From positions 1 to 64,000 of the forward strand of contig NZ_JAJUKH010000004.1 in assembly GCF_021538675.1 (NCBI RefSeq): DNA of 64,000 bases, written 5' to 3'. The translations under genes and the position numbers were made by a program. The stretch comes from Paenarthrobacter sp. AR 02. Lineage in GTDB: Bacteria > Actinomycetota > Actinomycetes > Actinomycetales > Micrococcaceae. Under the pieces are notes generated by a model. It was given only the letters and a program-made list of their open reading frames with translations, did no database searches and was not told the DNA's origin. This document shows positions 1-18,673 of the stretch, piece by piece. The stretch's first letter is position 1. Each line of letters begins with the position of its first letter.

Positions 1-68
1 CAACCGCGTCCGAACAACACCACCGCGGCCGCACGCTGTTCCTCGGACAATGAACTGCTCTTAAACAT
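1..68 (-). CDS. IS3-family transposase, N-terminal fragment (runs off the window)
   Basis: An ATG at 68 is preceded by GGGGAG at a suitable distance. The first 22 codons give a protein starting MFKSSSLSEEQRAAAVVLF, which looks like the start of the helix-turn-helix OrfA-type protein of IS3-family elements. The rest of the gene lies outside the window. The start, the ribosome binding site and the insertion-sequence terminus agree with each other. The exact IS subgroup cannot be named from this fragment. Confidence 0.55.
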   Translation of the reverse strand, partial: MFKSSSLSEEQRAAAVVLFGRG

Positions 69-127
69 CAAACTGCTCCCCGTAAGTCAGAACTGAATTT
101 TCAGTCCAACTTTCGGGGAGCAGTTCA
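1..127 (-). mobile_element. End of an IS3-like insertion sequence (partial)
   Basis: The outer end reads TGAACTGCTCCCCGAAAG on the minus strand from position 127 and is followed by the start of a transposase gene, so this is the left terminus of an insertion sequence that continues beyond the window. An exact 10-base inverted repeat (CTGCTCCCCG at about 71-80, CGGGGAGCAG at about 115-124) sits between the terminus and the transposase ribosome binding site. It could form a hairpin that hides the translation start in read-through transcripts. Family assignment rests on the terminus and the first 22 residues only. Confidence 0.6.
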
Positions 128-173
128 GATCCCGGCGCCTGCTTTGTTTGTTTGTTTACCGAGTCGGTAAGGC

Positions 174-863
174 CTACTTGGGCATCAGTACCGAATCAAC
201 CAGGTAAACCGTTGCGTTGGCGGTGTGGACGCCACCGCAGATCACGTTGGCTCCGTTAACCGTGAGGGCGTCCTTGGTGCCGGCTACGGTCACTTCGCCA
301 CCCTGGACAGTCTTGTGGGTGCCGACGATCTTGTCCGGGCTCAGCTGGCCGGGGACTACGTGGTAGGTGAGGATCTTGCTCAGCAGGGCGTCGTCCGTCT
401 TGAGCGTTTCGATCGTTGCGGGATCGATCTTGGCGAAGGCATCGTCAACCGGTGCGAACACCGTGAATTCGCTGCCGTTCAGGGTGGAAACCAGGTCCAC
501 CTTGGGGTTGAGCTTGCCCGAAACTGCGGCGGTCAGCGTCTTCAGCAGCGGGTTGTTGGACGCAGCTACCGCTACCGGGTCCTGGGCCATGCCCGTAACG
601 GAGCCGGCACCACTCGGTACCTGGGCGGCGTAACCGGCGCAGCCGGGGCCCACGAGGTCACGGGCAGGGTCCATGGCGGTGCTGGCCATGGCCGAGGAGG
701 ATGGCGACGGTGCCATCGAGGAAGGAGCCGCGGATGACGGTGCGGCTGCCGACGAGGATGCGGGGGTGCTGGTGGTGCTTGAACCACCACAGGCCGTGAG
801 TCCGAGAAGGGCGGCTGCAGTGAGGCCAACGAAGGCGAGGGCGGGGCGCTTTGTGGACAACAT
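174..863 (-). CDS. Fasciclin-domain lipoprotein
   Basis: The 229-residue product has a type II signal peptide ending in the lipobox LTAC (Cys25), then a Ser/Ala/Pro-rich linker to about residue 60, then one fasciclin (FAS1/BIgH3) domain from about residue 90 to the end. The motifs [14 protein letters not shown] and [10 protein letters not shown] are the conserved FAS1 blocks. It is expected to be tethered to the outer face of the membrane, where FAS1 domains act in adhesion or protein contacts. The start is supported by AAGGAG eight bases before the ATG. The gene stands alone next to an insertion-sequence end. Confidence 0.9.
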
Positions 864-1436
864 GTCATTCTCCTTGTTTTGTGGGACCTGGGCGTTGGTT
901 CCATCGGGTTGTGGGACACGGGCTGGGAATGGTGCGGCTGCATCGCTCTCGGTTTGTGTCTCACCAGCTATTCGGAGGTCACGACGGGGTGGATGGGTGC
1001 GGATTGAAAAAGTTTTTTAAGGCAGGTCTTTTCGTGGTGGGCGCTGGCTTGGTTGCGGGAGGAGCGTTCGACGCCGGTACTCGCCGCAGGCGCGACGGCT
1101 GCGGACCGCGGCGCACGCCGCCGATTGCATCGGCTAACCCGCGAAAACATCCGAATCAGAATGAGGTGGGTTCTCTCACGTATTTCCGGTCGCCCTGCTT
1201 AACTGGCATGAACTGGCGTTATGTCGTGTTGAGGTCAGCGTATCTCATCAGATGTACCAATTCGCCGATCTTCCGACCCTACCGAGATCTGTCCCGCGGC
1301 CCGTCGTCCCGCGAATGTAGGCGGTCGGCTGGCCTCATCCAAAGCTTCACTCCGCATTAAAATCCAACGATGGGCTAGAGACCGCAGCCTCTTGAACTCA
1401 ACCGGATAGAACACACGCACATTCTGAGTTGCGCTA
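864..1436. other. Gene-free stretch
   Basis: No convincing coding sequence is seen here. The short open frames are arginine-rich and lack ribosome binding sites. The part next to 864 must hold the promoter of the fasciclin gene. The stretch also marks the change from GC-rich DNA to the lower-GC block that starts at 1437. Confidence 0.4.
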
Positions 1437-2588
1437 TCACCAGTGGGTGAAATGAGACTTGGCGCTGTCGAGGATGTAGTTCCATTCTTTTAGATCGGCC
1501 CATTCAGGCTTTTCCGGGTGCTTCTCGGGCTCGTGACTCAGCCAGGACTGCTTGGCACCGATATCCCGTCGGTGCAGAAACCAGTCCCGGCTCGGATGAT
1601 GCAGGCCATCGCTAGTCAGATACCAAGGAGCAGAATCCGACCCGGCAACTTCCACGAGAGCGCTCTTGAACGGCAGCGAGCCCGGCACTCTGTTGCTGGC
1701 GTCAATGGCGGACCTAATCGACTTCTCAAACCGCGGAAGAACAGGTTTCCAGTCGATTTTCTCGGCCAGGCCACGTTGGCGCCTGCGGGCCATTTCCTCC
1801 GCCAACCTGATGGCGGCTTCTTCAAAGTGTTCGTCAGAACTCCAAACAACTTCTGCCCAAACGTCGTCCCCAGACGCCTTGAGGTGCAGTTCCTTATACT
1901 CCTCCGGTGGCGCCTGTCTCCTAGCGGGATTGTTGTAGGGCTGTAGTTCGTCGGGGAACCTCCACTGCAACCCGATATGCAAGCGCCCCGGTTCATCTTC
2001 GGCTTGGACCACTATGGAGTCCTGGGCCAAGGCGCTTACGTTGGATGCCTCCAAGAAGGAACCCAGCACCTTCTCGTGGGTGAAATCCTTAGCGAGGTCG
2101 GAAATGACCGCGTCCTGTTCGGCAAGCCGTTGATCGTAGAGTGAATTGATCCTGTCGGACAGGGGAGCCAATCGTTCATCCAAGTCGGCTTGGACGGCTT
2201 CGCGCACATCCTTCTTGACTTCTTCTGTGACCGATTTTGAGACTGTCTTGGTGATCACCCTGCGGAGCTTGGGTTCGAACAGAAGAAGCACAGCGGCAGA
2301 AAAAACGCCTACACCGAAGTTCGTGAAGATGGACTGCCATACCGCTACAGCATTGTCGCCGAGATTAGGAATGAAGGGCCCCCAAAAAGCTAAATAGGTC
2401 GTAACCACACCGCTAGCGGCAAGGACGCCAACCCACCCGAAATGAATGCCAGGCTCTCTATTTTCCACAAACCAAACAGTACAACTGCGGAGCGGATTAT
2501 ATAGAAGTGATGTCTCTACGAAGGACTGTAAGCCGCCATCTCTAGGTGGACTTGCCTTGTCTAAAGGCCAGGACCGGCAGCCCACCAT
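1437..2588 (-). CDS. Membrane protein of unknown function with coiled-coil region
   Basis: The 383-residue product is not recognised. Two likely membrane helices lie at about residues 49-72 and 87-106. They are followed by a charged, helix-prone segment (about 110-170, with repeated Val/Lys/Glu and Asp/Leu patterns) that could form a coiled coil, and then a soluble C-terminal domain of about 200 residues rich in Trp, Pro and charged residues. The start is uncertain: the ATG at 2588 has only a weak ribosome binding site and an in-frame GTG at 2468 is possible. The DNA is visibly less GC-rich than the flanking core genes. It is divergent from the OLD-like gene, so the two may share a promoter region (2589-2822) and a role. 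Confidence 0.65.
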   Translation of the reverse strand: MVGCRSWPLDKASPPRDGGLQSFVETSLLYNPLRSCTVWFVENREPGIHFGWVGVLAASGVVTTYLAFWGPFIPNLGDNAVAVWQSIFTNFGVGVFSAAVLLLFEPKLRRVITKTVSKSVTEEVKKDVREAVQADLDERLAPLSDRINSLYDQRLAEQDAVISDLAKDFTHEKVLGSFLEASNVSALAQDSIVVQAEDEPGRLHIGLQWRFPDELQPYNNPARRQAPPEEYKELHLKASGDDVWAEVVWSSDEHFEEAAIRLAEEMARRRQRGLAEKIDWKPVLPRFEKSIRSAIDASNRVPGSLPFKSALVEVAGSDSAPWYLTSDGLHHPSRDWFLHRRDIGAKQSWLSHEPEKHPEKPEWADLKEWNYILDSAKSHFTHW

Positions 2589-2822
2589 GGCCTTTCACTG
2601 GTTACGAACAGCCCGGTCGACCCTGGGCCTCGCATGCCTCTGCGTTTCCGCCTCCTTTGCATGATGACTTCCCACTTTGGAGCATCACCCTACTCAGACT
2701 CGCTGGCTTTGAGCACTGGCAGCCCATGCCTGCTCTTCGTCGGCAGCGACCGCTGGCAACGTCGCGTTCATTTTTGGAAAATGGTCATGACACCGCAGCC
2801 CTATCATTTACTGTTTATTCCT

Positions 2823-4676
2823 ATGACGGTACGCGAAGCCCAGCTGGATGATCTTCTAAGTGCTTATGGTGTGAAGAGAGGCAGCGCGCAGAACGTCAAC
2901 ATCGGCGTCACGGCTACCTATCTCCAAAGTGGTGATCGCATCGAGTTCGAACCCGCTGGCGTCACAGTCATCGCCGGTGCCAATAACTGTGGAAAATCCA
3001 CAATGCTCCGTGAGCTGAACCTGCTACTCCTTGGCCATGATGGAAATCCTCGGCTAATAGTCGGGAGTGTAGAGCGCCTCTTTGAGGGTGAACCAGTCGA
3101 CTTCGCTGACTGGCTGATCAAACATGCACAGTTCAACATCGACAGGAACCAGCCTGAGAACGCTAGTTTTCTACGCTTCGAGCACGGCATCCCTGTCAAG
3201 GGCTTCCTAATTCCGGATCATGGCGGATATGGAGCATCGTTCCGAATGGAATCGCTGTTCGGGGTCTTCGTTCGGCATCTGCCCGCGGGGCAGCGTGACA
3301 TCCATCCGGGCAGGCAGAAGGAAACTGTCCTGGCGCCGGCTACAGAGCCGCTCCAGCTTTTGAGTGAGAGCAAGACGCTGATGGACGAGCTCAATGCCAT
3401 CACATTCAAGATCCTTAAGAAGCGGCTACACCTAGACGATCTGAACCCTACGCTTGTGCTCCGTGTTGGGACACCTACGGTTGAGCGGCCCCAGGGAAAA
3501 TATGAGGATCCCGTCTCATACCAACTTGATGTCGAGTCGCTACCTCTGTTGTCAGATCAAGGGGACGGAATGAAAAGTCTCCTCAACATCCTTATTCCAC
3601 TCGTCACCGCCACGTACCCCATTCTCATCATCGACGAGCCTGAGGCGTTTCTACATCCACCCCAGGCATTCGCCTTGGGGCAAGTCTTGGGAAGGATCGC
3701 CGCGGAGAAGCGCTTACAGCTGATCCTCGCGACACACGACCGAAACATCATGGCCGGCCTGGTAAACGCTGAGGCTCCATTGTCCGTTGTGCGCCTGGTC
3801 AAGCAGCAAGACAAGCCCACGAGGGCCCACCAGCTCAAGTCGCAAGACCTTCGCGCCATCATGAAGGATCCAATCCTTAAGTACAGCCATGTGCTGGATG
3901 GCTTGTTCCACGAGGTCGTGATCCTGGCGGAAGCAGAAAGGGATTGCCGCTTCTACGAGGCCGCCCTGGATGAATATGAGAACGCCTCGTCAACGACACC
4001 TCAGGTCCCGTCACCAATGCCAGCAACAGAGGTGCTCTTTATTCCCACCGGCGGCACCAGCAACATGCCCCGGCTGGCGAAAGCACTAAGGTCTCTTAAT
4101 GTCCCCGTCGTAGCCTGCGCTGATTTGGATGTGCTGGATAAGAAGACCGTGCTCAAGAATATCGTTGAAGGGGTAGGGGGCCAATGGGCCGGCTTGGAAG
4201 AGGACTGGAATGCGGTAGTCGCGCCTCTGAATGCGGCCGCACCCCTGGAACATGCCGTAACTGTGGGGTCCAGAGTGCAAGCAGTTTTTGAATCGCTGGT
4301 CAGCCAGGATGCCTTTGCGATCTTTGATGGGGACGCTCGTAAACTTGTCAACGACGCCATGAAAGCCCAATCCCGTCCTTGGGACGAAGTGAAGCACCAC
4401 GGGATCTCTGAACTCCAGAGGGTGAATGTGGAGAACCCACGTGCTGTGCATCGGCTGGTCGCCGGGTTAGCAGACCAAGGAGTTGTCGTGGTTGAAGCCG
4501 GTGAGCTAGAGAGCTTCGGCCATGATTTGGGTGCCTATAAGGGGAAAACTTGGTTGCCTGCGGCGCTAGCGGCAAACCTTCAGAGCCGACCCGACGTTCA
4601 AGCACACGTAAAGCGTCTCCTCGGCGCCGCGGTACCGCTCACGTCGTGGAACGACACTTCCACCCCCCTCGCCTAG
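2823..4676 (+). CDS. OLD-like ATPase with C-terminal TOPRIM nuclease domain
   Basis: Numbered from the ATG at 2823, the 617-residue protein has a Walker A motif GANNCGKST (residues 52-60), an ABC-like signature region LSDQGDGMKSL (about 243-253), a Walker B motif LIIDEPEAFLHP (268-278) and an H-switch LATHD (302-306). The C-terminal part has TOPRIM features: VILAEAERD with the acidic residue near 370 and ACADLDVLD with Asp434 and Asp436. This order, an SMC/ABC-type ATPase split by an insertion and then a TOPRIM domain, is that of OLD-family proteins, which are nucleases linked to phage exclusion. The frame is open further upstream to 2634, but the DNA between looks non-coding. No UvrD-like partner of the Gabija type is adjacent. 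The DNA has lower GC than its surroundings. Confidence 0.8.
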   Translation: MTVREAQLDDLLSAYGVKRGSAQNVNIGVTATYLQSGDRIEFEPAGVTVIAGANNCGKSTMLRELNLLLLGHDGNPRLIVGSVERLFEGEPVDFADWLIKHAQFNIDRNQPENASFLRFEHGIPVKGFLIPDHGGYGASFRMESLFGVFVRHLPAGQRDIHPGRQKETVLAPATEPLQLLSESKTLMDELNAITFKILKKRLHLDDLNPTLVLRVGTPTVERPQGKYEDPVSYQLDVESLPLLSDQGDGMKSLLNILIPLVTATYPILIIDEPEAFLHPPQAFALGQVLGRIAAEKRLQLILATHDRNIMAGLVNAEAPLSVVRLVKQQDKPTRAHQLKSQDLRAIMKDPILKYSHVLDGLFHEVVILAEAERDCRFYEAALDEYENASSTTPQVPSPMPATEVLFIPTGGTSNMPRLAKALRSLNVPVVACADLDVLDKKTVLKNIVEGVGGQWAGLEEDWNAVVAPLNAAAPLEHAVTVGSRVQAVFESLVSQDAFAIFDGDARKLVNDAMKAQSRPWDEVKHHGISELQRVNVENPRAVHRLVAGLADQGVVVVEAGELESFGHDLGAYKGKTWLPAALAANLQSRPDVQAHVKRLLGAAVPLTSWNDTSTPLA

Positions 4677-4890
4677 CGAGCCCCCGGTTGTGGAAGCTGG
4701 ATATCCCAGTTTGTGAGTCGTCGGGTATGGGAGGCCCCCCGGCAGTATGACCTGAAAGAACTGGGACACGTATCTGTCGGGCGTGTCTCATTCCTATCTG
4801 ACTCATATCCCTTTTTCTTCAACGCAGCGGCCAACCTGCGACGCCAGACGGACTGTGCTCCATCTGAACTCACACCGGATGGGTTTTCTG

Positions 4891-6318
4891 TCATCGAGGC
4901 TTGGGTGTCAGCATTACCAGTGCGTTGACGGCCAGACTCGGATGACCGGGCACGACTTTGGAATCCGTTGACAAAACGATGGTGTTATCTATGGAAGGGT
5001 AGTCCCGAAGTTGCAATCCGTCATTCATGTTGGTTCCGACAACCTCAACCTGTTCACCGCGATATGAGGCAGTCAAGACCCAATCGTCCGCCGCACTCCC
5101 ACTGAAATCGAGTTCGAGAGCATCTCCATCAACAAGCGTTTCCGTTGTTTCATTTTCATAGAACGAGACAGGCCAGTCAAAGTCTGCTAGGCCCGGAACT
5201 TCGGTGAGGTTCTCAAAGACCGCCAAGGGTCCGTCATCATCCCATGCTGTCTCTACCCTTGGAATCGCCCAAGTATGCCGCACGGCGCCAACCGCCAAGC
5301 TATTGACTGTCCCTTTGTCCACCTGGAAAGTGACGCCGATATAGACCGCGCTATCCGAGTACAGCCGTTTCGTCCCCGTAACCTCGTAGTCTTCACCCTC
5401 TATGTCCCGAGTCACCTCAGGACCATACAGGTCCGTTAGGATGCATGCCTCCGCTTCGACGATCTGGGAGACCTTGTCCAGCTTTGCGTTCGAAAGACCC
5501 AAAAGGACCTTAGGGCCGGTAGCCGCGAATGCAAGTGGCCTCTCCTCCTCGATACTTCCAATCAAACTATTGGGCGATTCGAAGGACGTAAGGTCGATGT
5601 TACCCACCTCCCCTTGGAGGAAATCCGCACAACGCGCTACCAGGTAGTCCGGTGCCGGGGTCATGCGGAAGATGTGCTTGTTCAGCGCATCGGTACTTTT
5701 GAACGACTTAACGTCTTTGACACCCCAGCTGTTGTGGGCCTTTGCAAGGTCGCTGTCGCTGCTGAGGACTACGTACGCTTCGCCCTTATTTCCGGAGTGG
5801 TGGTGGTAGGCGCGATAAATCGCGCTATCAGCGGCGCCGGTCTTCACGGACTTCTCGTTTTTGTTGTTTTTGACGGCCCGGCCTTCCCGCGTGACCCTCT
5901 CGCCGGGTAAACGCACCAGGATCTGGTCTTTCAGAGCTTCCACAACTACCGGCTCGATAGGAATTACTTTGACGTGCGGACCAAGTTCTTTGATCCCGCG
6001 AAGAACGAATTCCAATGCTTCCTCAACCGTTGTTGGTTGGGCATCAATCTCGTTGATACCGGCAGCGACCAGTCGACTTCGGGCCTGATTGAGCGCAGAC
6101 CAGTCCTCCCGCAGATGATCCGCCCATTCCCAAATCACCGGTTCGGCAATCCAAATCTCCATAGCGCCGTGCTGCTTGGCCTGGTGAGCAAGCCCCCGCA
6201 GCTGGGCGAGATTGAAAGCTCCCCTACCCACTGCATTGGTGTCGATACCAATCGCCCGGACTTTCGATACCCATTCAGGAATTTCCGCCGTTAATTCTTG
6301 GGAGGTTTCACTTGTCAT
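4891..6318 (-). CDS. PIN-domain protein (predicted RNase) with long C-terminal extension
   Basis: The N-terminal ~200 residues look like a PIN-like nuclease domain: IGIDTNAV with Asp26, an acidic helix IAEPVIWEWADH with Glu59 and Glu64, AADSAIYRAY with Asp164, and VLSSDSDLAKA with Asp188 and Asp190. These are the spaced acidic residues that bind divalent metal in PIN nucleases. Residues 210-475 form a second region that I do not recognise. The product is 475 residues, much longer than a VapC toxin, and there is no small antitoxin gene beside it. It is convergent with the OLD-like gene (a 214-base gap) in the same low-GC block. The ribosome binding site before the ATG at 6318 is weak. Confidence 0.65.
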   Translation of the reverse strand: MTSETSQELTAEIPEWVSKVRAIGIDTNAVGRGAFNLAQLRGLAHQAKQHGAMEIWIAEPVIWEWADHLREDWSALNQARSRLVAAGINEIDAQPTTVEEALEFVLRGIKELGPHVKVIPIEPVVVEALKDQILVRLPGERVTREGRAVKNNKNEKSVKTGAADSAIYRAYHHHSGNKGEAYVVLSSDSDLAKAHNSWGVKDVKSFKSTDALNKHIFRMTPAPDYLVARCADFLQGEVGNIDLTSFESPNSLIGSIEEERPLAFAATGPKVLLGLSNAKLDKVSQIVEAEACILTDLYGPEVTRDIEGEDYEVTGTKRLYSDSAVYIGVTFQVDKGTVNSLAVGAVRHTWAIPRVETAWDDDGPLAVFENLTEVPGLADFDWPVSFYENETTETLVDGDALELDFSGSAADDWVLTASYRGEQVEVVGTNMNDGLQLRDYPSIDNTIVLSTDSKVVPGHPSLAVNALVMLTPKPR

Positions 6319-6404
6319 GAGGGCAATCGTCGTGCAGATGAGATCACGAAATCAAACGGGGCTCGGAGGTTGGTTGGCTTCGCCTTAGTCCTTGGACGTA
6401 AGAA

Positions 6405-7078
6405 CTAGTGCTGACAAGAAACCACGGCAAACGGACCTGTGGACGTTTGCTTCGCCGTTTGGACGCCGTTGCGCAATATCTGACAGGTGATGGTCGTCGC
6501 TCCTTCCCCTGACTGTGCGGTGACGCCGAAGGTGTTGTAGCCCCGTTCGATCTGTGACTCGGTGAAGAAATAATCCTTCTGGAATGGAGAGCTCACATCA
6601 TTGGCCTGTTCGGTGCTGAGCTTCCCATAAAGGCTGTTCCCAAACGTGGTACTGGATATGGGCCCATCCGCAGTGATGACGTAGCTAATCGTGATTCCCG
6701 CCGGCTGAGTCGGTGCGGCGGTGGCTGAGGGCTTCGGGACCATGGGTTCCATGATTAGACGGACTTCGTCGCCGGATCCCGGATTTCCGGCCGGTTCGAG
6801 ACGGACGAAACTCCAGGCCTCGTCCTTCAGCTGCCCGGGGCCGGCCCCATCCAGCTGGGTGCCGTTGACGTCCCAGATCGAATAAGAGACGTCGAATTTT
6901 TCGAGAGCGCGCTTGGCATGGGCGAGATCGTAGCCCTCCATGGCTGCAACATTAAGAGTTCTGCGAGGAGATGGAGTCGGTTGCTGACTCGTCGCTTCAG
7001 CCGGCGGTTTTGCTAGCGGTGCAGCACAGCCAGAAACAGACAATCCGATAATGGCAAGCCCCGAAACGTCCGCTTCAA
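6405..7078 (-). CDS. MmpS-like lipoprotein with PASTA-like segment; apparent 5' frameshift
   Basis: The body has a lipobox (LSVSGC), a Pro/Thr/Ser linker, a PASTA-like segment (EGYDLAHAKRALEKFDV) and a C-terminal domain resembling MmpS proteins: ISYVITADGP, then an aromatic/polar strand pattern, then ATTITCQILRNG and FAVVSCQH with two Cys likely paired. The frame is open only back to a TTG at 7091, which gives a poor signal peptide without positive charges. A TTG at 7078 in another frame, with GGGAG six bases upstream, starts LKRTFRG. Adding one base to the C run at 7059-7062 would join it into a good signal peptide, LKRTFRGLAIIGLSVSGC. This is either a real mutation or a sequencing indel. 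A convincing MmpL partner is not nearby. Confidence 0.6.
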
Positions 7079-7270
7079 TCCAGTCTCCCAAAAAGATCTA
7101 AATCCAACCTTCCAAGGCTAAATGAGCTACCCGGCTGTGGCGCATTCGCCACGAAACAAAGTCACGCAGTCGATCCATATGCGACCCCCCAAGGCCTGTT
7201 GTTTGATGCTACTCGGGCATGCCCGGTCGTCCGAGGCGAGTCCGTAACCGTCTGTGTGTGCCCTGCACGA

Positions 7271-7303
7271 AAAGGGAGAGACGCCTAACGCGTCTCTCCC
7301 TTT
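7271..7303 (-). terminator. Perfect 14-bp hairpin after the 7318-8208 gene
   Basis: AAAGGGAGAGACGC (7271-7284) pairs perfectly with GCGTCTCTCCCTTT (7290-7303) across a 5-base loop. It lies 15 bases past the stop of the minus-strand gene ending at 7318. The flanking T-run is only three bases, so termination strength is uncertain. Confidence 0.65.
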
Positions 7304-7317
7304 CCCATGCTTCAGTA

Positions 7318-8208
7318 CTAGCGGCTAAGCCCGTTCTTGCTTCTTTCGGCGCCCGAGGCTGCCCCTCCTCGAGTCTTCCTGGCTTTGGTGGTCTCTCCGA
7401 TTGTTATGGCTGCGCTGGGGTGTGTGCCCTCGGAGCGGGCGGCTGCGAGTCTGCCGCGGATCTGCGTTTCGTTGGCGTCTGTGCCGGCGAGTGATTCCGC
7501 GAATTTCTGGTGGTGCTCGGCGGAGCCGTAGCCGGCCTGTGCAGAGGTTTCGGTTTTCAGGCCTTGGTCTTTTAGCCGGCTGGTGTCGTTGCCGGTGACG
7601 CGGTTCTCGATCTCCCGGCCGACGTCTTCCGTGCGGGCGAAGAGTTCCTTCTCAGCCCTCTCGTAGCGCTGTTCCTGGGTGGACCATTTGGATCCTTTGA
7701 ATCGGCCCTCTGCCAGCAGTCTGGCTTCGCGGAGGTTCTTGGCTGCGTCCACGAAGGCGGGATTCTTGAAGTGTTCATCGCCTGCACCGTTGACGTTGGC
7801 GGTGGTTTCCTTAAGGAGCTGGTCGATGTCGGGTCCGTTGACGCCGTCCTTACCGATGAGGAACGTCCGCTCTTTGATTTCGGAGTCGGCTACCTCTCGT
7901 GCCTTGGGTGTTTTCGCGTTGTGGGCAAGCTGGAGTGCTTTGGTCAGTGCGGGGTTGGCCAGGTACTCCACCGGCACATGGTGGCGCTCAATCTCGGGGG
8001 CGAGTTTCGCCGATTGGGCGCGGAGTTCTTCGGCACGCGCGGCCGCAACCTCCTCTACCCCGACCCCAGCATCCGGACCTTCGGTAACTACATCCCGTTC
8101 CTCACAGAATGCGTCATTGATGGGAAGGTAGGAGTCATTCCAGGTACAGCGGACATCTGCAACGAACTCGGCATCCACGCACTGATCAAATAAAACTGCC
8201 TCACGCAT
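7318..8208 (-). CDS. Hypothetical protein, hydrophilic and helix-rich
   Basis: The 296-residue product is not recognised. It has no signal peptide or membrane helix. It is rich in Ala, Glu, Arg and Lys and is predicted to be mostly helical (for example AKNLREARLLAEGRF and YERAEKELFARTEDVGREIENR), with a basic, low-complexity C-terminal tail. No ribosome binding site is clear before the ATG at 8208, and the N-terminal part reads unlike the rest, so the gene may be the 3' part of a longer gene. The setting among gene remnants fits a plasmid- or element-derived protein, but no relaxase motif is visible. A strong hairpin follows the stop. Confidence 0.5.
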   Translation of the reverse strand: MREAVLFDQCVDAEFVADVRCTWNDSYLPINDAFCEERDVVTEGPDAGVGVEEVAAARAEELRAQSAKLAPEIERHHVPVEYLANPALTKALQLAHNAKTPKAREVADSEIKERTFLIGKDGVNGPDIDQLLKETTANVNGAGDEHFKNPAFVDAAKNLREARLLAEGRFKGSKWSTQEQRYERAEKELFARTEDVGREIENRVTGNDTSRLKDQGLKTETSAQAGYGSAEHHQKFAESLAGTDANETQIRGRLAAARSEGTHPSAAITIGETTKARKTRGGAASGAERSKNGLSR

Positions 8209-8267
8209 GGGGTCGGCATAAGTGTGTGGACGAGGTGGTGTTTCGGCTCGCCCGGTACGCTGTGGCC

Positions 8268-8360
8268 ATGCAGATTCGTGAAGCCACCCCGGATGACCTG
8301 GGACGTGTGATCGCGGACGACGGCCGATCAGACCTCATTCTCTTTGGGACGCGCCGATGA
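8268..8360 (+). pseudogene. GNAT acetyltransferase N-terminal remnant
   Basis: A 30-codon frame from the ATG at 8268 encodes MQIREATPDDLGRVIADDG and a short unrelated tail before a stop. The start is typical of GNAT N-acetyltransferases, but the acetyl-CoA-binding core is missing. It reads as the broken front end of a GNAT gene joined to the region that now precedes the MFS remnant. Confidence 0.4.
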
Positions 8361-8376
8361 GGCCCAGAGGAGTGAA

Positions 8377-9472
8377 GTGCGAAGCCCTTTGACCCTGCTG
8401 AAGCAGTACCCGAAGTTCCGTCGCGTTCTGCTCGGCGAAGGCTTGGCGATGGCAGGCGAAGCTGCATTCTCTATCGCACTGGCTTGGCTTGTCATTACAG
8501 CAACGGGGTCGATTGTTGCACTTGCTGGCGTGCTGCTGGCTCAGGCGATACCACGGGGAACGCTGTTGCTGCTTGGCGGTGCACTGACCGACCGCTTCTC
8601 GCCAGGTCGCGTCATGCTCGTCTGCCACTTAGGGCGTGCCGGCGCCATGGCATTGGTATCGATCATGAGCTTTACCGGCACCGTGCAACTGTGGCAGCTG
8701 TACGTCCTCGCTGCCATCACGGGTACTGCTTCCGCCTTCTTTGCGCCTGCCAGTGAGGCCGTGCTCCCGCGCCTGCTCCCCAAACAAGACCTTCCGCAAG
8801 GCAACGCAGTTCAAGGGGCAGTCGCGCAGGCTGCTTTCATTGTCGGCCCAATGGCAGGGGGCGTCCTTACTGCTTGGGGCGGCGCAGGTTTGGCCATTGC
8901 CGTCAACGCACGAGACCCGCATAGTCCTTCTGGTTATCAGTGCAGCCACACTGAGCTAGAGCGGAGTCTTCGCCATCGGGCTGCCGATGCTGGCAACTTC
9001 CCTCAGTGACTCGCCGCTTGCCCTTGGCATCCTCGTCTCCGGATGGGGCGCAGGCCAGCTGCTCGGAACCGTTGCAGCCGCCGTGACCGGCCTCCCTCAG
9101 CGGTGGGGCCTACTCATCATTTCCATGACACTCGTGGAAGGCGTCGCCTTTGCCCTGCTGGGCCAGACCAAAGAACCATATGTGGCAGCCATCATCCTCG
9201 CTTTGGTCGGGATAGGCGTCGCCTACAGCACCGATGTGTCCCTCCCAACATTCATTCAGACCCGCACCCCGAGCCACCTGCTGGGGCGGGTCAGCTCGGT
9301 ACTGGAACTGCCCAGGGTCATTCTTGAACCGGCATCCATAGCCTTGCTCGGCCTGGTTCTCGCCGGTTCCCTTCAATGGGGATTCCTTGCGGCCGCCGCC
9401 CCTGTATTGGTTGCCGGCGCAATCCTTTCCCTGGACAGACGGGCCCGAACGCTCACCGCCGATGGGACCTGA
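8377..9472 (+). pseudogene. MFS transporter broken by at least two frameshifts
   Basis: Frame one, from a GTG at 8377 with AGGAG just upstream, encodes the first half of an MFS exporter: FRRVLLGEGLAMAGEAAFS, GGALTDRFSPGRVMLV (the loop 2-3 motif) and an FFAPASEAVLPRL segment. At about 8918 the expected TM6 sequence continues in a second frame (TRIVLLVISAATLS, then a stop at about 8960). It continues in a third frame from about 8963 (GVFAIGLPMLATSLSDSPL) to the stop at 9472. The joined length of about 365 residues is short for this family, so part of the TM6-TM7 linker is probably lost as well. Neither half alone should transport. Confidence 0.75.
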
Positions 9473-9532
9473 GGAAGTGTTAGCGGCCTGATAGCGAGTC
9501 TTCTCCCGGAAAGAAAAACACGCAAAGCCCCC

Positions 9533-9653
9533 TAGAAGTACGGCTTCGTGATCAGTTCCAGCGCGTGTCCCGAGGGGTCTTTGAAGTACACCCCGCGGCC
9601 GCCGTGTTCGGTGTTCGTCTCGCCCGGGCGGGTCATTTGCGGATCGGCCTGAG
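9533..9653 (-). pseudogene. VOC/glyoxalase family C-terminal remnant
   Basis: On the minus strand, the frame ending at the TAG at 9533 encodes GGRGVYFKDPSGHALELITK and PYF, the conserved C-terminal block of vicinal-oxygen-chelate proteins with the metal-ligand Glu in the ALELIT segment. Upstream the similarity fades within about 40 residues and no start with a ribosome binding site is found. This is a leftover of a glyoxalase or bleomycin-resistance-like gene. Confidence 0.6.
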
Positions 9654-9726
9654 GCGATGATGGCGTGAAAGTCTAACAAAGCAGTTTCTCTGGCGGAGCG
9701 GCCAATCCCGATGGCAGGATGGGCGG

Positions 9727-10299
9727 ATGGCTATCGAAGTTCGCCCCGCCACGGTGTTCGATGACGTCAGGACCATGGTGGGACCCAAGAACCCCGGCTC
9801 CAATGTGTGCTGGTGCCTGAGTTACCGCATCCCATCCAAGCTAAACCTGAGCCTCCAACGCGAAGAGCGCGGCGCGTACGTTGAGAAGCTGGTCGCCGAG
9901 GATCCTCCGCCCGGGGTTTTGGCGTACGACGGCGACGAGGTAGTCGGATGGGCAGCGGTCCACCCGCGCAACGACACCAGTTTCGCAACGAACCGGAAGA
10001 TCCCGCACGTGGACGACGCAGAGGTGTGGTCCGTGTGGTGCATCCGGGTGCGGCCCGGGCATCGGGGAAAGGGCATCTCGCACGAACTCCTGCGTGGAGC
10101 CATCGACTTCGCCAGGGCCCACGGGGCCCCCGTCCTTGAGGGCTACCCCGTGGACAACAAGGGTGGAAAGGTGGACCTGACTATGGCCTATGTGGGGACA
10201 AGGAAGCTGTTCGAGAAGGCCGGCTTCAAGAAGGTCGCCGAAACCACGTCCGTACTCAACGGCTTTCCGAGAGTGTTGATGCGGCTGGAGCTCAGCTAG
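9727..10299 (+). CDS. GNAT family N-acetyltransferase
   Basis: The 190-residue protein has the GNAT fold signals: VVGWAAVHPR (strand 4), VWCIRVRPGHRGKGISHELL with the acetyl-CoA pyrophosphate-binding RGKG loop, and a C-terminal KLFEKAGFKKVAE followed by a final strand. The early Cys-Trp-Cys (VCWCLSYRIP) is seen in a branch of these enzymes of unknown substrate. The acceptor cannot be predicted. The gene is intact, unlike the remnants just upstream, and it ends eight bases into the convergent IclR gene. Confidence 0.85.
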   Translation: MAIEVRPATVFDDVRTMVGPKNPGSNVCWCLSYRIPSKLNLSLQREERGAYVEKLVAEDPPPGVLAYDGDEVVGWAAVHPRNDTSFATNRKIPHVDDAEVWSVWCIRVRPGHRGKGISHELLRGAIDFARAHGAPVLEGYPVDNKGGKVDLTMAYVGTRKLFEKAGFKKVAETTSVLNGFPRVLMRLELS

Positions 10300-11116
10300 T
10301 TCCTTGCAACCGTGCGGTCATCCGGTGCGCTTCCTCAAGCAGCAGCTTCCCCAGGTATTCCTGGCGCTCCGGGCGGAAGCGGGGTTCGATCCCTGTCAGG
10401 GACAACGCCCAGGCCGGCCGGCCCTGCTGGTCGAAGACTGCAGCACCCATCCCCCAACTGCCTTCGAGGATCAACCCGGGATTCACTGAGTACCCGGCCA
10501 GCCTTGTTTGCTCCAGATTCTCCCGCACCACGTCAGCAGGATGGCCGTCAGAAAAGTCACCTGCGTGCTCTGCCCATTCGGCCAGCAGCGCTTCCTGTTC
10601 TTCGGCGGGCAGGAAGGCCAGGATCGCCGTGCCCGCGGAGGCAACGCCCAAGGGAAACCGCACACCTTCATGGAGCACGAACGACCGTACCGGGAACGAG
10701 CCTTCCTCCCGCAGCACACAGACAGTTTCGTTGCCGCGCCGGATCGAGAAGAACGCGCTCTCGCCCGTCTCGGTAGCCAGCCTGCGAAGGGATGGGCGGG
10801 CGATGTCCTCCATGGGGAAACGGGCAGCTGCGACAGACCCGAGCAGGAAGATCTCGGGTCCGAGCACCCACTTTCCTGAGGACGAATCATGTTCCAGGAA
10901 GCCCTCGGCGGCCAGCGACGCCAGCAGCCGGTGAACAGTGGGCCGGGTGAGCCCGGATTCGCGGACCAGCCCGGCCAAGGACGTGCCTTCAGGCTTGCGA
11001 CCCACCAACCGCAGCAGTGCCGCCACCCGGCCCACTACCTGCGCTCCCTGAACTACCACGGTGCCCTCCAATGAGATTTCATCCACATTATGGACAGCAT
11101 CCAGTCTACCGTCCAC
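10292..11116 (-). CDS. IclR-family transcriptional regulator (PcaR/PobR-like)
   Basis: The protein has an N-terminal winged helix-turn-helix (about residues 28-85; TSLAGLVRESGLTRPTVHRLLASLAAEGFLEHD) and a C-terminal IclR effector-binding domain (about 100-270; FPVRSFVLHEGVRFPLGVASAGTAIL). It is divergent from the CoA-transferase/thiolase operon, so it probably controls that operon and itself. The true start may be a little downstream of 11116, because the palindrome at 11083-11095 would otherwise lie inside the coding region. The inducer is unknown and may be a 3-oxoacid or an aromatic catabolite. Confidence 0.85.
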   Translation of the reverse strand: MDGRLDAVHNVDEISLEGTVVVQGAQVVGRVAALLRLVGRKPEGTSLAGLVRESGLTRPTVHRLLASLAAEGFLEHDSSSGKWVLGPEIFLLGSVAAARFPMEDIARPSLRRLATETGESAFFSIRRGNETVCVLREEGSFPVRSFVLHEGVRFPLGVASAGTAILAFLPAEEQEALLAEWAEHAGDFSDGHPADVVRENLEQTRLAGYSVNPGLILEGSWGMGAAVFDQQGRPAWALSLTGIEPRFRPERQEYLGKLLLEEAHRMTARLQGTS

Positions 11117-11204
11117 ACCATGGGTGGTTGACCCTCCGGCTTCTTGACCCTGGCGGTGACCAAACCTAGGCTCCTAAGCAAGAAAGCAATGTCCACAAAG
11201 TGGA
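11083..11204. promoter_or_regulatory. Divergent promoter region with paired IclR-type operators
   Basis: TCCACATTATGGA (11083-11095) and TCCACAAAGTGGA (11192-11204) are two imperfect-centre palindromes with the same TCCA/TGGA arms. A weaker CCAC/GTGG pair lies at 11113-11127. A sigma-70-like promoter TTGACC (11144-11149), 17 bases, TAGGCT (11167-11172) points to the CoA-transferase operon. The second palindrome would overlap the start of its transcript. This fits control by the adjacent IclR protein. Confidence 0.5.
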
Positions 11205-11232
11205 AGCCAACCAAACTCAAAGAGGAGTTCCC

Positions 11233-11949
11233 GTGTCCAAGATCCACGCGAGCGCACCCACAGCGCTCCATGACCTCATGGCAGATGGCCTGACCATCGC
11301 CGTCGGAGGTTTTGGCCTGAGCGGCATCCCCGCAGACCTGATCGACGCCGTCCGCGAGTCGGGCGCGAAGGACCTGACCATCGTCTCCAACAACATGGGC
11401 GTGGACGGCAAGGGCCTGGGCGTGCTGATCGAGGCCGGGCAAGTCCGGAAGGTCATCGCATCCTATGTTGGCGAGAACAAGCTCTTCGCCGAGCAGTACC
11501 TGGCCGGCGAGCTGGAGGTTGAGTTCACCCCGCAGGGCACGCTTGCGGAGCGTCTTCGCGCTGGCGGCGCTGGGATTCCGGCGTTCTACACGCGGACCGG
11601 CGTGGGCACTTTGGTTGCCGAAGGCAAACCCTTGGAAGAGTTCGACGGCGTGACGTACGTCCGCGAGCGCGCCATCACCGCCGACGTCGCGCTGGTCCAC
11701 GCCCACACCGCCGATACCGACGGCAACCTGATCTACCGCTACACCGCCCGGAACTTCAACCCGGTGGTTGCCACCGCAGGCGCAGTGACCATCGCCGAGG
11801 CTGAGGTGATCGTCCAACCGGGCCAGCTGGATCCCAACCACATTGTCACCCCGGGTGTCTACGTCCAGCGGTTGGTGCAGGCAAGCAACAGGGTCAAGGA
11901 CATCGAGCAGCGCACGGTCCGCCAGCGCGTTGAAACCGCAGCCGTCTAG
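11233..11949 (+). CDS. 3-oxoacid CoA-transferase subunit A
   Basis: The product is a family I CoA-transferase alpha subunit: [19 protein letters not shown] is the glycine-rich motif, and [14 protein letters not shown] with [10 protein letters not shown] are conserved C-terminal blocks. With subunit B it moves CoA from succinyl-CoA to a 3-oxoacid such as acetoacetate or 3-oxoadipate. The GTG at 11233 with AGAGGAG upstream is preferred over the open frame back to 11200, which has no ribosome binding site. It is the first gene of a three-gene operon with subunit B and a thiolase. The substrate choice (ketone body or beta-ketoadipate) is not settled by sequence. Confidence 0.88.
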
Positions 11950-11972
11950 GAAGACAGAAGGAGCACATCACC

Positions 11973-12674
11973 ATGGCATGGACACGTGACCAGATGGCTG
12001 CCATCGCAGCCGAAGAATTGAACGACGGCGACTACGTCAACCTCGGCATCGGCATCCCCACATTGGTAGCCAACAACCTGCCCGACGGCGTCCGGGTGAT
12101 CCTCCAGAGCGAGAACGGCCTGCTCGGAATGGGCCCGTTCCCGTACGAGGGCGAGGAAGACGCGGACCTCATCAACGCCGGCAAGCAAACGGTGACGATC
12201 ACCCCGGGCGGCAGCATTTTCGACTCCGCCACCTCGTTCGGCATGATCCGCGGCGGCCACGTGAAGGTGGCCATCCTGGGTGCCATGCAGGTGTCCGGCG
12301 GCGGCGACCTCGCCAACTGGACCATCCCCGGCAAGATGGTCAAGGGCATGGGCGGTGCGATGGACCTGGTTGCAGGGACACCGCGCGTCGTCGTCCTCAC
12401 CGAACACAACGCCAAGGACGGCTCGGCCAAGATCGTCACCAACTGCACCCTCCCGCTCACGGGGCTTAACTGCGTGGACAGGATCATCACTGACCTCGCC
12501 GTATTCGATTTAGCCCCCGAAACAGAAACGCACGACGGCGGCACCCGCCTCGTGTTGACCCGTCTCGCCCCAGGCGTCACCGTGGAAGAGATCCGGAGCA
12601 AGACGGACGCTGGGTTCACAGTGGCGCTGGACGAAGACGCGCAGGAAAACACCCTCGAAGGAGCCAACGCATGA
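11973..12674 (+). CDS. 3-oxoacid CoA-transferase subunit B
   Basis: The 233-residue beta subunit has [17 protein letters not shown] near the N-terminus and the catalytic motif [11 protein letters not shown], whose Glu forms the glutamyl-CoA intermediate in this family. [23 protein letters not shown] is a conserved downstream block. The ATG at 11973 follows AGAAGGAG by a good spacing. The stop overlaps the thiolase start in an ATGA, so the two genes are translationally coupled. Confidence 0.9.
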
Positions 12675-13885
12675 GCCTGAAAGACCAGTTCGGTAAGGAC
12701 ATCCTGCTCACAGGGTGGGGCCACAGCAAGTTCGGCAAGCTGACGGACGACACCCTGGAATCGCTGATCGTCCACGTGGCAGGCGAAGCCATCCGGAACT
12801 CCGGCTTGGCCCCCAAAGACATCGACGAAATCTACCTGGGCCAGTTCAACTCGGGCATGCAGCCGCTGGGCTTCACATCGTCCCTGGCCCTCCAACTCTC
12901 CCCGGACCTCGCCCACGTCCCCGCGACCCGCACTGAGAACGCCTGCGCTTCCGGCTCTGCCGCATTCCAGCAGGGAGTCAAGGCCGTGCTCGCCGGAACC
13001 GCCCGCAACGTCCTGGTGATCGGCGCCGAAAAGATGACCGACGCGGGAGCCGACGTCGTGGGAGCCGCCCTGCTCGGCGCTTCCTACGAGATGGCCGGCA
13101 AGGCATCATCCACCGGTTTCACGGGGCTGTTCGCGGAGGTGGCCAAGCACTACGGGAAGCGCTATGGGGCAAACATTGCCGGCCCCGGATTCGAAGCGGG
13201 CCTCGGCGACGTCCTCGGTTCCATCGCCGCCAAGAACCACCGCAACGGCATGGACAACCCCTACGCCCAGATGCACCGGGACTTCGGCGAGGAGTTCTGC
13301 CGGACCATTTCGGACAAGAACCCCATGGTGGCCGAACCCTTGCGCCGCACCGACTGTTCGCCGGTCTCCGACGGCGCTGCCGCCGTCGTGCTGTCCACCC
13401 AGACAACCGGAGGTGCAACCGCACCCGTGCGCCTGGCGGGTTTCGGCCACGCGAACGATTTCTTCCCGGCCGAGAAGCGCGATCCCACGGAGTTCGCCGC
13501 CACCAGGGCGTCCTGGGAGCGCGCGTTCACCATGGCCGGCGTCGGAATTGATGGCCTGGACTTCGCCGAAGTGCACGACTGCTTCACCATCGCCGAGCTC
13601 ATCATGTACGAGGCCATGGGCCTGACCCCGCGCGGCGAAGGTTCCCGCGCCATCCAGGAGGGGTGGGTATATAAGGACGGCAAACTTCCCATCAACGTTT
13701 CCGGCGGCCTGAAGGCGAAGGGCCACCCTGTCGGCGCCACCGGCGTGTCCCAGCACGTCATCGCCGCCATGCAGCTCACGGGTACCGCGGGCGACATGCA
13801 GCTTCCCAACGCCCGACGGGGTGCCGTGCAGAACATGGGCGGCGTGGGCATCGCTAACTACGTAAGCGTGCTGGAAGCTCTCTAA
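12671..13885 (+). CDS. Thiolase (SCP2-type acetyl-CoA acetyltransferase-like)
   Basis: The 404-residue thiolase has the nucleophilic Cys in [10 protein letters not shown] (about residue 94), a [10 protein letters not shown] block and the C-terminal [17 protein letters not shown] with the active-site His. The overall sequence is of the SCP2/thiolase-like type rather than the PcaF/FadA type, which has a second Cys in a CxG motif near the end. It is expected to split a 3-oxoacyl-CoA made by the CoA-transferase just upstream, to which it is coupled by a 4-base overlap. The stop also overlaps that of the convergent ankyrin lipoprotein gene by 4 bases. Confidence 0.88.
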
Positions 13886-14574
13886 CCCCGGATCAGCCCA
13901 GCGATCTCCGTGAATCCGAGCCGCTCTGCGTTTTGCAGGGCGGTTCGGCCTTGGGGGTCGCGGATGTCCGGGTTCGCTCCGGCCTCGAGCAGCTGCCGCA
14001 CCACGTCCTGCTGGTTGGGGCCGCCGTTGTTGAGCAGGATGGCTTCCTGCATGGCTGTCCATCCCAGGTTGTTGACGTGGTCCACGGGCACGCCGGCGGC
14101 GATCAGGATCCGAACGGTTTCCGTGTGCCCGTGTTCGCTGGCCGGAATCAGGGCCGTGCCGCCGTACCGGTTAATGCTGCGCACGTCGGCCCCGGCGGCC
14201 AGGGTGAGCTGGAGAACCTCGTTGAAACCCTCGGCCCCTGCGTAGAGGAACGCGGAGTCCTGGATCCCATCCTTGGCGTTGACGTTTCCGCCCGCCGCGA
14301 TGAGCTCCCGGACCCGCGCAGGGTCGTTGGCTTTCGCGGCCAGGATGAGGAGTCGGTCGGTTTCCATCTGGGCCTCCGGGGACAGTTTGGGCGGCGTTGC
14401 CTCGGCAGCAAACGACGACGACGGGATCGGGCTGGCGCTCGACGGCGCCACGGACGCGGGGGCTGTCTGCGACGCGCCAGGTGAGACTGGGCTGGAAGGT
14501 GACGTTCCCGCCGTCGTACATCCCGCCAGCAGCCCGACCATCAGCAACCCAACCCCCGCCACCCGCTTTTTCAT
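13882..14574 (-). CDS. Ankyrin-repeat lipoprotein
   Basis: The product has a type II signal peptide with the lipobox LLAGC (Cys19), a Ser/Pro/Ala linker to about residue 65, and four or so ankyrin repeats: NDPARVRELIAAGGNVNAKD, FNEVLQLTLAAGADVRSINR, HTETVRILIAAGVPVDHVN, and QDVVRQLLEAGANPDIRDP. It should be an anchored, outward-facing scaffold for protein contacts. It starts two bases after the stop of the HbpS-like gene, so the two are co-transcribed. That makes the HbpS-like protein or its signalling partner a likely contact. Confidence 0.88.
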   Translation of the reverse strand: MKKRVAGVGLLMVGLLAGCTTAGTSPSSPVSPGASQTAPASVAPSSASPIPSSSFAAEATPPKLSPEAQMETDRLLILAAKANDPARVRELIAAGGNVNAKDGIQDSAFLYAGAEGFNEVLQLTLAAGADVRSINRYGGTALIPASEHGHTETVRILIAAGVPVDHVNNLGWTAMQEAILLNNGGPNQQDVVRQLLEAGANPDIRDPQGRTALQNAERLGFTEIAGLIRG

Positions 14575-14576
14575 GG

Positions 14577-15152
14577 CTACTTCGCTGCTTCGGCCAGGGC
14601 ATCCGCACCGGCGGTAGCGCAGGCTTCGTCGAGGGCGCCGTCAGGGGCACCGCCGACGCCGATTCCCGCCACCGAGACGCCGTTCACCTTCAGCGGCACG
14701 CCGCCGGACAGGAAGAGGGTGCCCGGGAGGTCGGCGATCGAGGGGCCGTTGCCGTTGATGCGCTTGGCAAGCTCACTGGTGGGGGCACCGAACGCGGCAG
14801 CCGTGTAGGCCTTCTGCTTGGCGGCTTCGATGGTGTGCTCGGCGGCGTTGTCACCGCGGAGGATGGCCTGGACCGTGCCGAAACGGTCCACCAGTGCGAC
14901 GGTCACGAACGGCAGCTTGTCCGCCTGGCACTTGGCGAGCGCAGCGTTGACGGCCTTGCTCGAGGCACCCACTGTGATGCGGTTCTGGGCAACCACGTAC
15001 TCCGGTGCGGGCTGGACGTCAGCCGGGGCTTTGGCCTCGACGGCGGCGGGGGCGGCGGCCGGCGCCACGGCGTTGGCCACAGCCGTGGCGCCACCGGTGA
15101 GCAACAATGCTCCAGCAGCGGCAACGGCAATCATCTTGTTGGACTTCTTCAC
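14577..15152 (-). CDS. Secreted GlcG/HbpS-like heme-binding protein
   Basis: The 191-residue product begins at a GTG (15152) with AAGGAG seven bases upstream. It has a signal peptide (KKSNKMIAVAAAGALLLTGG), an Ala/Pro linker and a GlcG/HbpS (DUF336) domain from about residue 50: VNAALAKCQADKLPFVTVAL, GTVQAILRGDNAAEHTIEAA, and GTLFLSGGVPLKVNG. In Streptomyces, HbpS binds heme outside the cell and works on the SenS sensor kinase. Here a NarL-type kinase/regulator pair is divergent from it, as in that system. The second gene of its operon encodes an ankyrin lipoprotein. Confidence 0.85.
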   Translation of the reverse strand: MKKSNKMIAVAAAGALLLTGGATAVANAVAPAAAPAAVEAKAPADVQPAPEYVVAQNRITVGASSKAVNAALAKCQADKLPFVTVALVDRFGTVQAILRGDNAAEHTIEAAKQKAYTAAAFGAPTSELAKRINGNGPSIADLPGTLFLSGGVPLKVNGVSVAGIGVGGAPDGALDEACATAGADALAEAAK

Positions 15153-15346
15153 GGCAATCTCCTTGTAGTCAGCGTCGGTACACCTCCATGCTCCCGGGGC
15201 GGGCCCGGTACCACATCGGCCCGAAGCAGCCCCCGGACTCATACTTTCCGCGGGCCGTATCAGCCAAAAGGTGGAGAGACCAACAGCCCTGCGGGCACCT
15301 AGCATGGAAAGAACGCCTTCAAGGGAAACGGGAACCGGAACCGACC

Positions 15347-16555: not shown

Positions 16556-17178
16556 GCACCATTTCCGTGCTGCTCGTGGATGACCACACAGTTGTCCGGA
16601 GCGGGCTCAAGGCGCTGCTGGGCACCCAAGCCGATATCGCCGTCGTCGGTGAAGCGGCATCAGGCGAAGAAGCGCTGGAAGCCGCCCAAGAGCACCAACC
16701 CGCGGTGGTCCTCATGGACCTGGCCATGGGCGCAGGGATGGATGGCATCGAGGCAATCAAGCAACTGCGCCAGCGCACACCCCACCAGGCGATCATCGTG
16801 TTCACCACCTACGATTCCGATGCCGACATTGTCCGCGCCGTTGATGCCGGTGCGATGGGGTATCTGCTGAAGGACGCGGCACCCGAGGAGATCTTCGCCG
16901 CCGTCCGCGGGGCTGTGCAGGGAAAGAGCGTCATGTCAGCTCCCGTCGCCTCGCGGCTGTTCCAACAACTACGTCATCCGGACGAGATCCTCACCCCGCG
17001 CGAAGCGGAACTGCTCAGCCTGTTGACCCAAGGCCTCAGCAATCGTGACCTGGGCAAACGCCTCTTCATCTCGGAAGCAACAGTGAAGACCCACCTCGCG
17101 CACATCTACGCAAAACTGGGCGTCGAAACCCGTGCGGCGGCCATCGCCACGGCCATCCGGCGCGAGGGGATGCGGTAA
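16552..17178 (+). CDS. NarL/LuxR-type response regulator (SenR-like)
   Basis: The 208-residue protein has a receiver domain (SVLLVDDHTVVRSGLKALL, phospho-acceptor Asp in VVLMDLAMG at about residue 55, switch Thr in IVFTTY, Lys in YLLKDA) and a C-terminal LuxR helix-turn-helix (LTPREAELLSLLTQGLSNRD and SEATVKTHLAHIYAKLGV). It is the partner of the kinase just upstream. It probably controls the divergent heme-binding/ankyrin pair as well as its own operon, but no operator could be assigned by eye. Confidence 0.92.
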   Translation: MSTISVLLVDDHTVVRSGLKALLGTQADIAVVGEAASGEEALEAAQEHQPAVVLMDLAMGAGMDGIEAIKQLRQRTPHQAIIVFTTYDSDADIVRAVDAGAMGYLLKDAAPEEIFAAVRGAVQGKSVMSAPVASRLFQQLRHPDEILTPREAELLSLLTQGLSNRDLGKRLFISEATVKTHLAHIYAKLGVETRAAAIATAIRREGMR

Positions 17179-17205
17179 CCCGCGGTGGTTGGTTACGCTG
17201 ACCCT

Positions 17206-17772: not shown

Positions 17773-17832
17773 TCCGGCGGTAAAAAGCGGTAGGGGGATG
17801 CGCTCAGCGCCAAGTTCGGTAAGTTAGTTGCT

Positions 17833-18639: not shown

Positions 18640-18673
18640 GCACATTCACACCGACGAAAGGGGGTGGCTGGAA

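Follow-up and report, generated by a model that had tools for sequence, protein, structure and literature searches.

The question raised by the locus described here is whether three neighbouring genes, encoding a membrane protein, an ATPase-TOPRIM protein of the OLD type and a protein with a PIN domain, form one phage defence system or only lie side by side. They occupy positions 1437-6318 of a 64,000-nucleotide stretch of Paenarthrobacter sp. AR 02 (contig NZ_JAJUKH010000004.1, positions 1 to 64,000), called the window below (Table 1). An earlier note, made from the sequence alone, had proposed the trio as a candidate defence module within an acquired island and suggested a search for its co-occurrence elsewhere. 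The three genes are indeed present there, in DNA of lower guanine-cytosine (GC) content than the flanks, and the domain calls hold (OLD-type ATPase-TOPRIM, PIN protein, membrane protein with two hydrophobic segments). The functional module was not borne out, as each family occurs without the other two in the genomes and loci searched and no operon is shared. The region is very probably an acquired, partly plasmid-derived insertion of 8.5 kb with three independent single-gene accessory loci, not a three-gene system. Gene content, the insertion, active-site residues, the predicted PIN fold and the lack of co-occurrence in the searched genomes were all computed directly.

The suggested co-occurrence search was run in 245 genomes of the family Micrococcaceae and 394 genomes of the class (partly overlapping samples), with OLD relatives in the family sample counted at E <= 1e-30. 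In the family sample the PIN protein was found in 3 genomes (G000, which is the genome of the window, G191 and G119), the membrane protein in 8 (G000, G198, G223, G126, G181, G171, G163 and G216) and the OLD protein in 5 (G000, G187, G089, G110 and G151); the class sample yielded 1, 2 (one of them weak) and 4 genomes, respectively. At these thresholds two of the three families met in none of the 244 other family genomes and none of the 393 other class genomes, G000 being the only one in common. Two genomes with membrane-protein relatives of about 70% identity (G198 and G223) showed neither an OLD match at the E-value used nor a PIN match, and the genome with the closest PIN relative (G191, 39-40%) had no match to the OLD or the membrane protein. 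Wider scans added 24 loci retrieved with a PIN alignment and 37 retrieved from viral contigs with the OLD alignment A3; a second family of the trio was present at none of these 61 loci when the window proteins were compared by tblastn with flanks of up to 6 or 10 kb. The closest OLD relative (51% identity, L045) was seen over 13.8 kb. Likewise, tblastn revealed no locus with two of the three families in an earlier set of 33 loci, where some places are represented by two excerpts.

Clustering of neighbouring genes did not find a recurrent partner beside the PIN, OLD or membrane-protein relatives. For the PIN protein the clustering covered families present in at least 3 of the 24 loci, and these were two transposase-like families (4 and 3 loci) and an unnamed one (3 loci). 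At 11 OLD loci a recombinase-like family recurred in 4 and a small family in 2, and at 7 membrane-protein loci two families were each seen in 2; the labels transposase-like and recombinase-like are our own reading of the sequences. When mixed loci from all three families were clustered, several further unnamed pairs appeared, and the only same-family pair in addition to those from the per-family clustering was transposase-like (L019, L023). The membrane-protein gene and the OLD gene are divergent and the OLD and PIN genes convergent, so the trio has no common transcription unit. No account of such a trio, or of this PIN family, was found in the open-licence literature searched.

The genes sit in an insertion at about 1017-9531 (ends approximate), the empty site of which is retained in a near relative, G638, where 75 bp stand in place of the 8,515 bp of the window. 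In blastn comparison with the corresponding locus (L106), window positions 169-1016 match L106 11450-10600 and positions 9532-9649 match L106 10524-10407, and G638 is thus collinear with the window through 1016 and again from 9532. No direct repeat of at least 9 bases was found between the two insertion end regions, and no transposon or att site was flagged. Among 21 sampled genomes of the genus, all 21 have a relative of the flanking IclR-type regulator and 20 have one of the fasciclin gene; besides the genome of the window, G638 (distance 1.36 kb) and G642 (distance about 235 bp) are the only ones in which the two are adjacent, and in the remaining 18 they are distant, on separate contigs, or one is missing. 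The GC content is 0.558 in 1437-6318 versus 0.632 (174-1016) and 0.651 (9532-20000), and across the 64 kb an equal or lower value was recorded in 12 of 592 segments of the same length. Acquisition of an island with gene remnants, as the earlier note had it, is supported by the empty site in G638, a truncated plasmid gene and a frame-split transporter; its boundaries were drawn too narrowly at 1437-6318. The insertion-sequence end at 1-120, taken there as a mark of the island, is present but is a repeat at the contig edge, outside the insertion and beyond the fasciclin gene. This sequence recurs at four further places in the genome, three of them contig starts, and the assembly breaks at the repeat. 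A second difference at the site consists of about 420 bp of G638 against only 58 bp here (9650-9707).

At least part of the insertion is plasmid-derived, as it contains a truncated gene of a plasmid mobilisation region (7318-8046). A blastn search with positions 1001-8300 retrieved 37 plasmid records from Arthrobacter, Paenarthrobacter and Pseudarthrobacter (conjugative by typing in 35 cases), and all of the best 20 of these 37 match at about 7318-8046 with 74-83% DNA identity. Eleven plasmid regions were inspected, that is 10 of the matching records and pYA7-1b, which was reached via its OLD homologue. The gene, which follows the relaxase, encodes 355-532 amino acids (aa) in 10 plasmid records, and the window retains the 3' part only. 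Of the 11 regions, 9 have a relaxase or mobilization protein annotated 5' of the gene, and in 7 of the 9 the annotation includes MobC as well; pAD52 names MobC only (the PLSDB gene table is incomplete) and pStoSoilB3 names neither. A longer copy (83%) is located on contig C1 (168.5 kb) of the window's own genome, adjoining a 545-aa open reading frame (ORF) in the relaxase position. On one locus (L032) an OLD homologue and a piece of the relaxase-neighbour gene stand together.

Table 1. Features of the insertion and its surroundings (positions in the window)
Feature	Position	Strand	Size and structure	Basis or remark
Insertion-sequence end	1-120			contig edge
Fasciclin gene	177-863			flank, outside the insertion
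Membrane protein	1437-2588	-	383 aa as longest ORF; start perhaps GTG 2468	ORF list, hydropathy
OLD, longest ORF	2634-4676	+	680 aa	open from ATG 2634
OLD-family ABC ATPase-TOPRIM nuclease, fits Class 1 (solitary)	2823-4676	+	617 aa	profiles, alignment
73-aa ORF	4673-4894	-	73 aa	ATG overlaps the PIN stop codon
Solitary PIN-domain nuclease (predicted)	4891-6318	-	475 aa; PIN domain about 13-219 and beta-rich C-terminal half	model, conserved acids
Putative lipoprotein ORF (family name is our reading)	6405-7091	-	228 aa	ORF list
Truncated 3' part of the gene following the relaxase on Arthrobacter/Paenarthrobacter plasmids	7318-8046	-		blastn against plasmids
Major-facilitator transporter remnant, apparently split over two frames	8344-9472	+	ORFs 8344-9009 and 8987-9472
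IclR-type regulator (family name is our reading)	10295-11116			flank, outside the insertion

The OLD-like protein, encoded by a single gene with the functional residues of phage P2 Old preserved and accompanied by neither a helicase nor a reverse transcriptase in the scanned ORFs of the block, fits Class 1, the solitary OLDs. Its start is most likely ATG 2823 rather than 2634, as this is where the alignment with the nearest relative begins (L045, 51%, on an IMG/VR viral contig). Pfam matches were obtained with AAA_21 (7.3e-16), AAA_15 and OLD-like_TOPRIM (6.1e-5, just above the cut-off), the best PADLOC model was Old (9.6e-20), and the Thermus OLD came first in a profile search of the PDB (5.4e-13). 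Identity to P2 Old is 19%, and the A3 profile matches it with a probability of 96.7 over 161 columns. In PMC7049728, mutation of 11 residues is described as abolishing the killing exerted by P2 Old; all 11 correspond in the window protein, 9 being identical and 2 Asp/Glu exchanges. The ATPase motifs are Walker A K58, Walker B D271, D-loop H278 and H-loop H305 (K37, D299, H306 and H332 of P2 Old), each invariant in all nine sequences of A3. The two-metal site of the TOPRIM domain comprises E370, D434 and D436 (metal A), D374, E561 and E563 (metal B) and K573, all aligned with P2 Old residues. Ten of the 11 columns are invariant in A3, which includes the window sequence, and K573 is replaced by another residue in 3 of the 9. 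Neither 50,697 phage records searched by tblastn nor the genome contigs scanned with the single protein (an alignment query was used there for PIN only) contained a relative; on viral contigs the single protein retrieved none and the alignment A3 retrieved 37. Plasmid matches amount to 7 records. Gabija and retron were also considered for this gene and ruled out, as their helicase or reverse transcriptase partner was not encountered in the scanned block ORFs; no retron RNA was detected in 1-10000 up to E 0.5, and no Rfam family scored above its gathering threshold (one match was far below).

The literature describes P2 Old as sensing RecBC inhibition and cleaving host tRNA, and Class 1 OLDs as rare, with a figure of 0.45% of bacterial genomes cited there from others (PMC13261556). 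By analogy, abortive infection or exclusion of the P2 Old kind is the most likely function of the window protein, and a defence role for at least this gene, claimed in the earlier note, is likely from family membership. Triggers and targets of this defence, as we infer them, would be the following. The ATPase part probably senses a disturbance caused by the phage, comparable to the loss of RecBC in the case of P2 Old, after which the TOPRIM part would cut nucleic acid and so halt the growth of the infected cell; the reported targets of P2 Old are tRNA in the cell and DNA in vitro.

The 475-residue protein was originally described as having PIN catalytic acids and a long C-terminal half, and both the fold and the conserved acids agree with this. 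The PIN assignment is based on structure comparison, conserved residues and weak profile matches taken together. PIN_12 matched the window protein with E 0.036, below the Pfam cut-off, and weakly in 7 of 20 members (best 3.6e-4). An AlphaFold2 model of the whole protein, built with 20 sequences, reached a predicted local distance difference test score (pLDDT) of 78.5. The VIA structure comparison placed a PIN fold at about residues 13-219, with 5h4h_B as the best match (Z 10.8, root-mean-square deviation 3.5, 140 aligned residues). The six best VIA matches (Z 10.8-10.2, 125-144 residues, deviation 3.1-3.8) are a VapC4 toxin, two exosome subunits, SMG6 and two archaeal proteins without a known function, and many more PIN and VapC entries come after them; Foldseek gave no match to the whole model at E <= 0.001. 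The catalytic acids are kept, window sequence included: D26 in all 19 sequences that cover it, E64 in 19 of 20, D164 in 20 of 20 and D188 in 19 of 20; E59 and D131 are also invariant in the 20 PIN sequences. The part that follows the PIN domain measures 249-331 residues in 15 of 19 relatives and 97-178 in the other four. This half is beta-rich in the model (pLDDT 81.8 when residues 222-475 were modelled separately); it retrieved nothing from Foldseek at E <= 0.001, and its best VIA score was Z 6.9 (LinA and others, about 80-90 residues), a level common for VIA. Alignment A4 comprises 19 of the 24 loci (L094 and L101-L104, which are broken, partial or of uncertain start, were left out), and A6 comprises 14 of these 19.

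None of the 20 PIN members matched a PADLOC model (PADLOC-DB of 2023), tblastn found nothing in the 50,697 phage records, and scans of viral contigs with the single protein and with alignment A1 returned no relative. Plasmid matches were restricted to 6 records, all from Streptomyces and all in the PIN half only. On a Streptomyces canus plasmid (L044) the PIN-relative ORF 4950-5525 ends within the PIN region, without the usual fourth acid, and is followed by a separate ORF 5536-6429; this is possibly a split or broken copy. As a best guess, the PIN protein is probably a self-restrained RNase, which is favoured because a solitary PIN defence protein, DS-3, is already known. The enzyme would be held back by its own beta-rich C-terminal half and freed by some trigger. 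More tentatively, the protein may be a member of a so far undescribed actinobacterial family of solitary defence RNases, in which a conserved beta-rich C-terminal domain would keep the PIN nuclease inactive and recognise a phage product, with no need of an antitoxin or partner; this is put forward as a possibility of rather low probability.

The membrane protein is a solitary accessory protein and would be unrelated to the other two. Two hydrophobic peaks were noticed in 19-residue windows starting near residues 50 and 86, the second being stronger, and a charged stretch and a C-terminal region come after them; no known domain was recognised. Relatives occur in 7 of the 244 other family genomes. 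Translation probably begins near residue 41 (GTG 2468), about 40 codons later than in the longest ORF, because alignments with relatives begin at about residues 39-49 or further on and a TATAAT motif lies inside the first 38 codons. An alignment of 8 members (A2) has 16 invariant columns, among them W52, W249, W322 and W369. No convincing relative was found in Pfam, PADLOC, PHROG or PDB (one of the 8 members has a weak LeoA match, 0.0043), no plasmid record matched, and alignment A5 retrieved no relative from viral contigs.

Among the remaining genes, the lipoprotein ORF had nothing over the Pfam cut-off and no tblastn relative in the 33 and 61 loci, and the first transporter ORF, 8344-9009, matched MFS_3 (3.5e-16). 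On the Micrococcaceae plasmids inspected, the cargo found within about 7 kb on the 3' side of the relaxase-neighbour gene differs per plasmid and is several times defence-like, in examples chosen without a control count (L032, L121, L122, L123, L127). Such cargo comprises a broken OLD, a ThsB-type TIR gene and a PDC-S35 gene on pYA7-1b, a YhcG-type PDDEXK nuclease (PDC-S02) on pACHL02, an annotated PDDEXK nuclease on pLDW-10, a toxin-antitoxin pair on pYA7-1a and, at L127 (G000:C1:18000-36000), a 1307-aa protein with weak STAND-NTPase and Cap4-nuclease matches; other plasmids, pCZY for example, carry metabolic genes at the same region. The pYA7-1b OLD homologue (L032:7432-9026) is split over two overlapping ORFs, probably broken, and its 3' end faces the relaxase-neighbour gene.

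The alternatives to three independent loci differ in how much function they attribute to the genes. It could be argued that the trio is an undescribed three-part defence system with the OLD protein as sensor, the PIN RNase as effector and the membrane protein as a second effector, as the genes are contiguous within one acquired block and both ATPase-TOPRIM and PIN proteins are known from defence. Against this stand the lack of any second occurrence in the genomes and 61 loci, the lack of an operon, and G198 and G223, whose close membrane-protein relatives have neither companion; the trio as one system is rejected on co-occurrence and orientation, and we consider it extremely improbable. An unlikely alternative of greater weight is that the genes are idle or decaying cargo of a plasmid fragment, with no present function in the host, for which the truncated relaxase-neighbour gene and the frame-split transporter speak; each of the three main genes nevertheless has an uninterrupted frame as long as that of its relatives, and the catalytic residues of OLD and PIN are intact. 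Pairing of the PIN gene, as a toxin, with the 73-aa ORF was suggested by the ATGA-type overlap of the two frames, but is very improbable: searches of 121 loci (best E 1.1) and of plasmids (best E 0.9) gave no convincing relative of the small ORF, no small same-strand ORF is common within 450 bp of 20 PIN genes, and the PIN protein is far longer than VapC. As an antitoxin the 73-aa ORF was dropped for want of convincing relatives.

Several points weigh against independent loci with the proposed functions. Most relatives are distant (OLD 28-51%, PIN 18-39%), which leaves room for a recent local partnership in this one strain, and the genome search for OLD scored the best 3-5 candidates per genome at a strict E-value. 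Class 1 OLDs are characterised in a review as single genes not near other candidate defence genes (PMC10568477), and here a PIN gene adjoins. According to another source, the anti-phage effects of YbjD, the Class 1 OLD of E. coli, persist in the absence of its TOPRIM domain, and the archaeal Cran1 acts in the cell cycle (PMC13261556), so a P2-like mechanism need not apply. PIN catalytic acids alone are no proof of RNase activity. Notwithstanding these points, three independent accessory loci remain the preferred reading. With it the trio, which does not recur, can be set aside as a weak lead. The OLD gene is a new representative of the already known Class 1 type, and an actinobacterial one with a complete active site is useful, as few Class 1 OLDs have been tested. 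It is the solitary PIN family, with its conserved beta-rich half and its place outside the defence profiles searched, that deserves bench work.

In comparison with known systems, VapC toxins share the PIN fold and the catalytic acids with the window protein, and are paired with VapB. They differ from it in size, about 130-146 residues in the matched structures versus 475 aa, and no recognisable antitoxin gene lies by the PIN gene. The OLD protein resembles the Class 1 OLDs of phage P2, Thermus scotoductus and E. coli (YbjD) in joining an ABC ATPase to a C-terminal TOPRIM domain, in having no partner gene, in its rarity and in the presence of relatives on viral contigs and plasmids. Unlike P2 Old, it belongs to an actinobacterial subfamily of low identity to that protein, with a longer stretch before Walker A. 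Gabija GajA (Class 2) and the retron-Eco8 OLD (Class 3) are of the same two-domain type and gave weaker profile matches than Old; in contrast to Gabija, no GajB helicase gene stands immediately downstream but a convergent PIN gene, and in contrast to retron-Eco8, no reverse transcriptase is present among the block ORFs scanned. For the PIN protein the nearest parallel in organisation is DS-3, reported from DefensePredictor as a one-protein PIN ribonuclease defence system for which self-inhibition is proposed (PMC13092281). By its description there, the PIN domain of DS-3 is split between the N and C terminus, whereas the window protein carries it undivided at the N terminus, ahead of a beta-rich half; like DS-3, it is a single protein without an antitoxin (PMC13092281).

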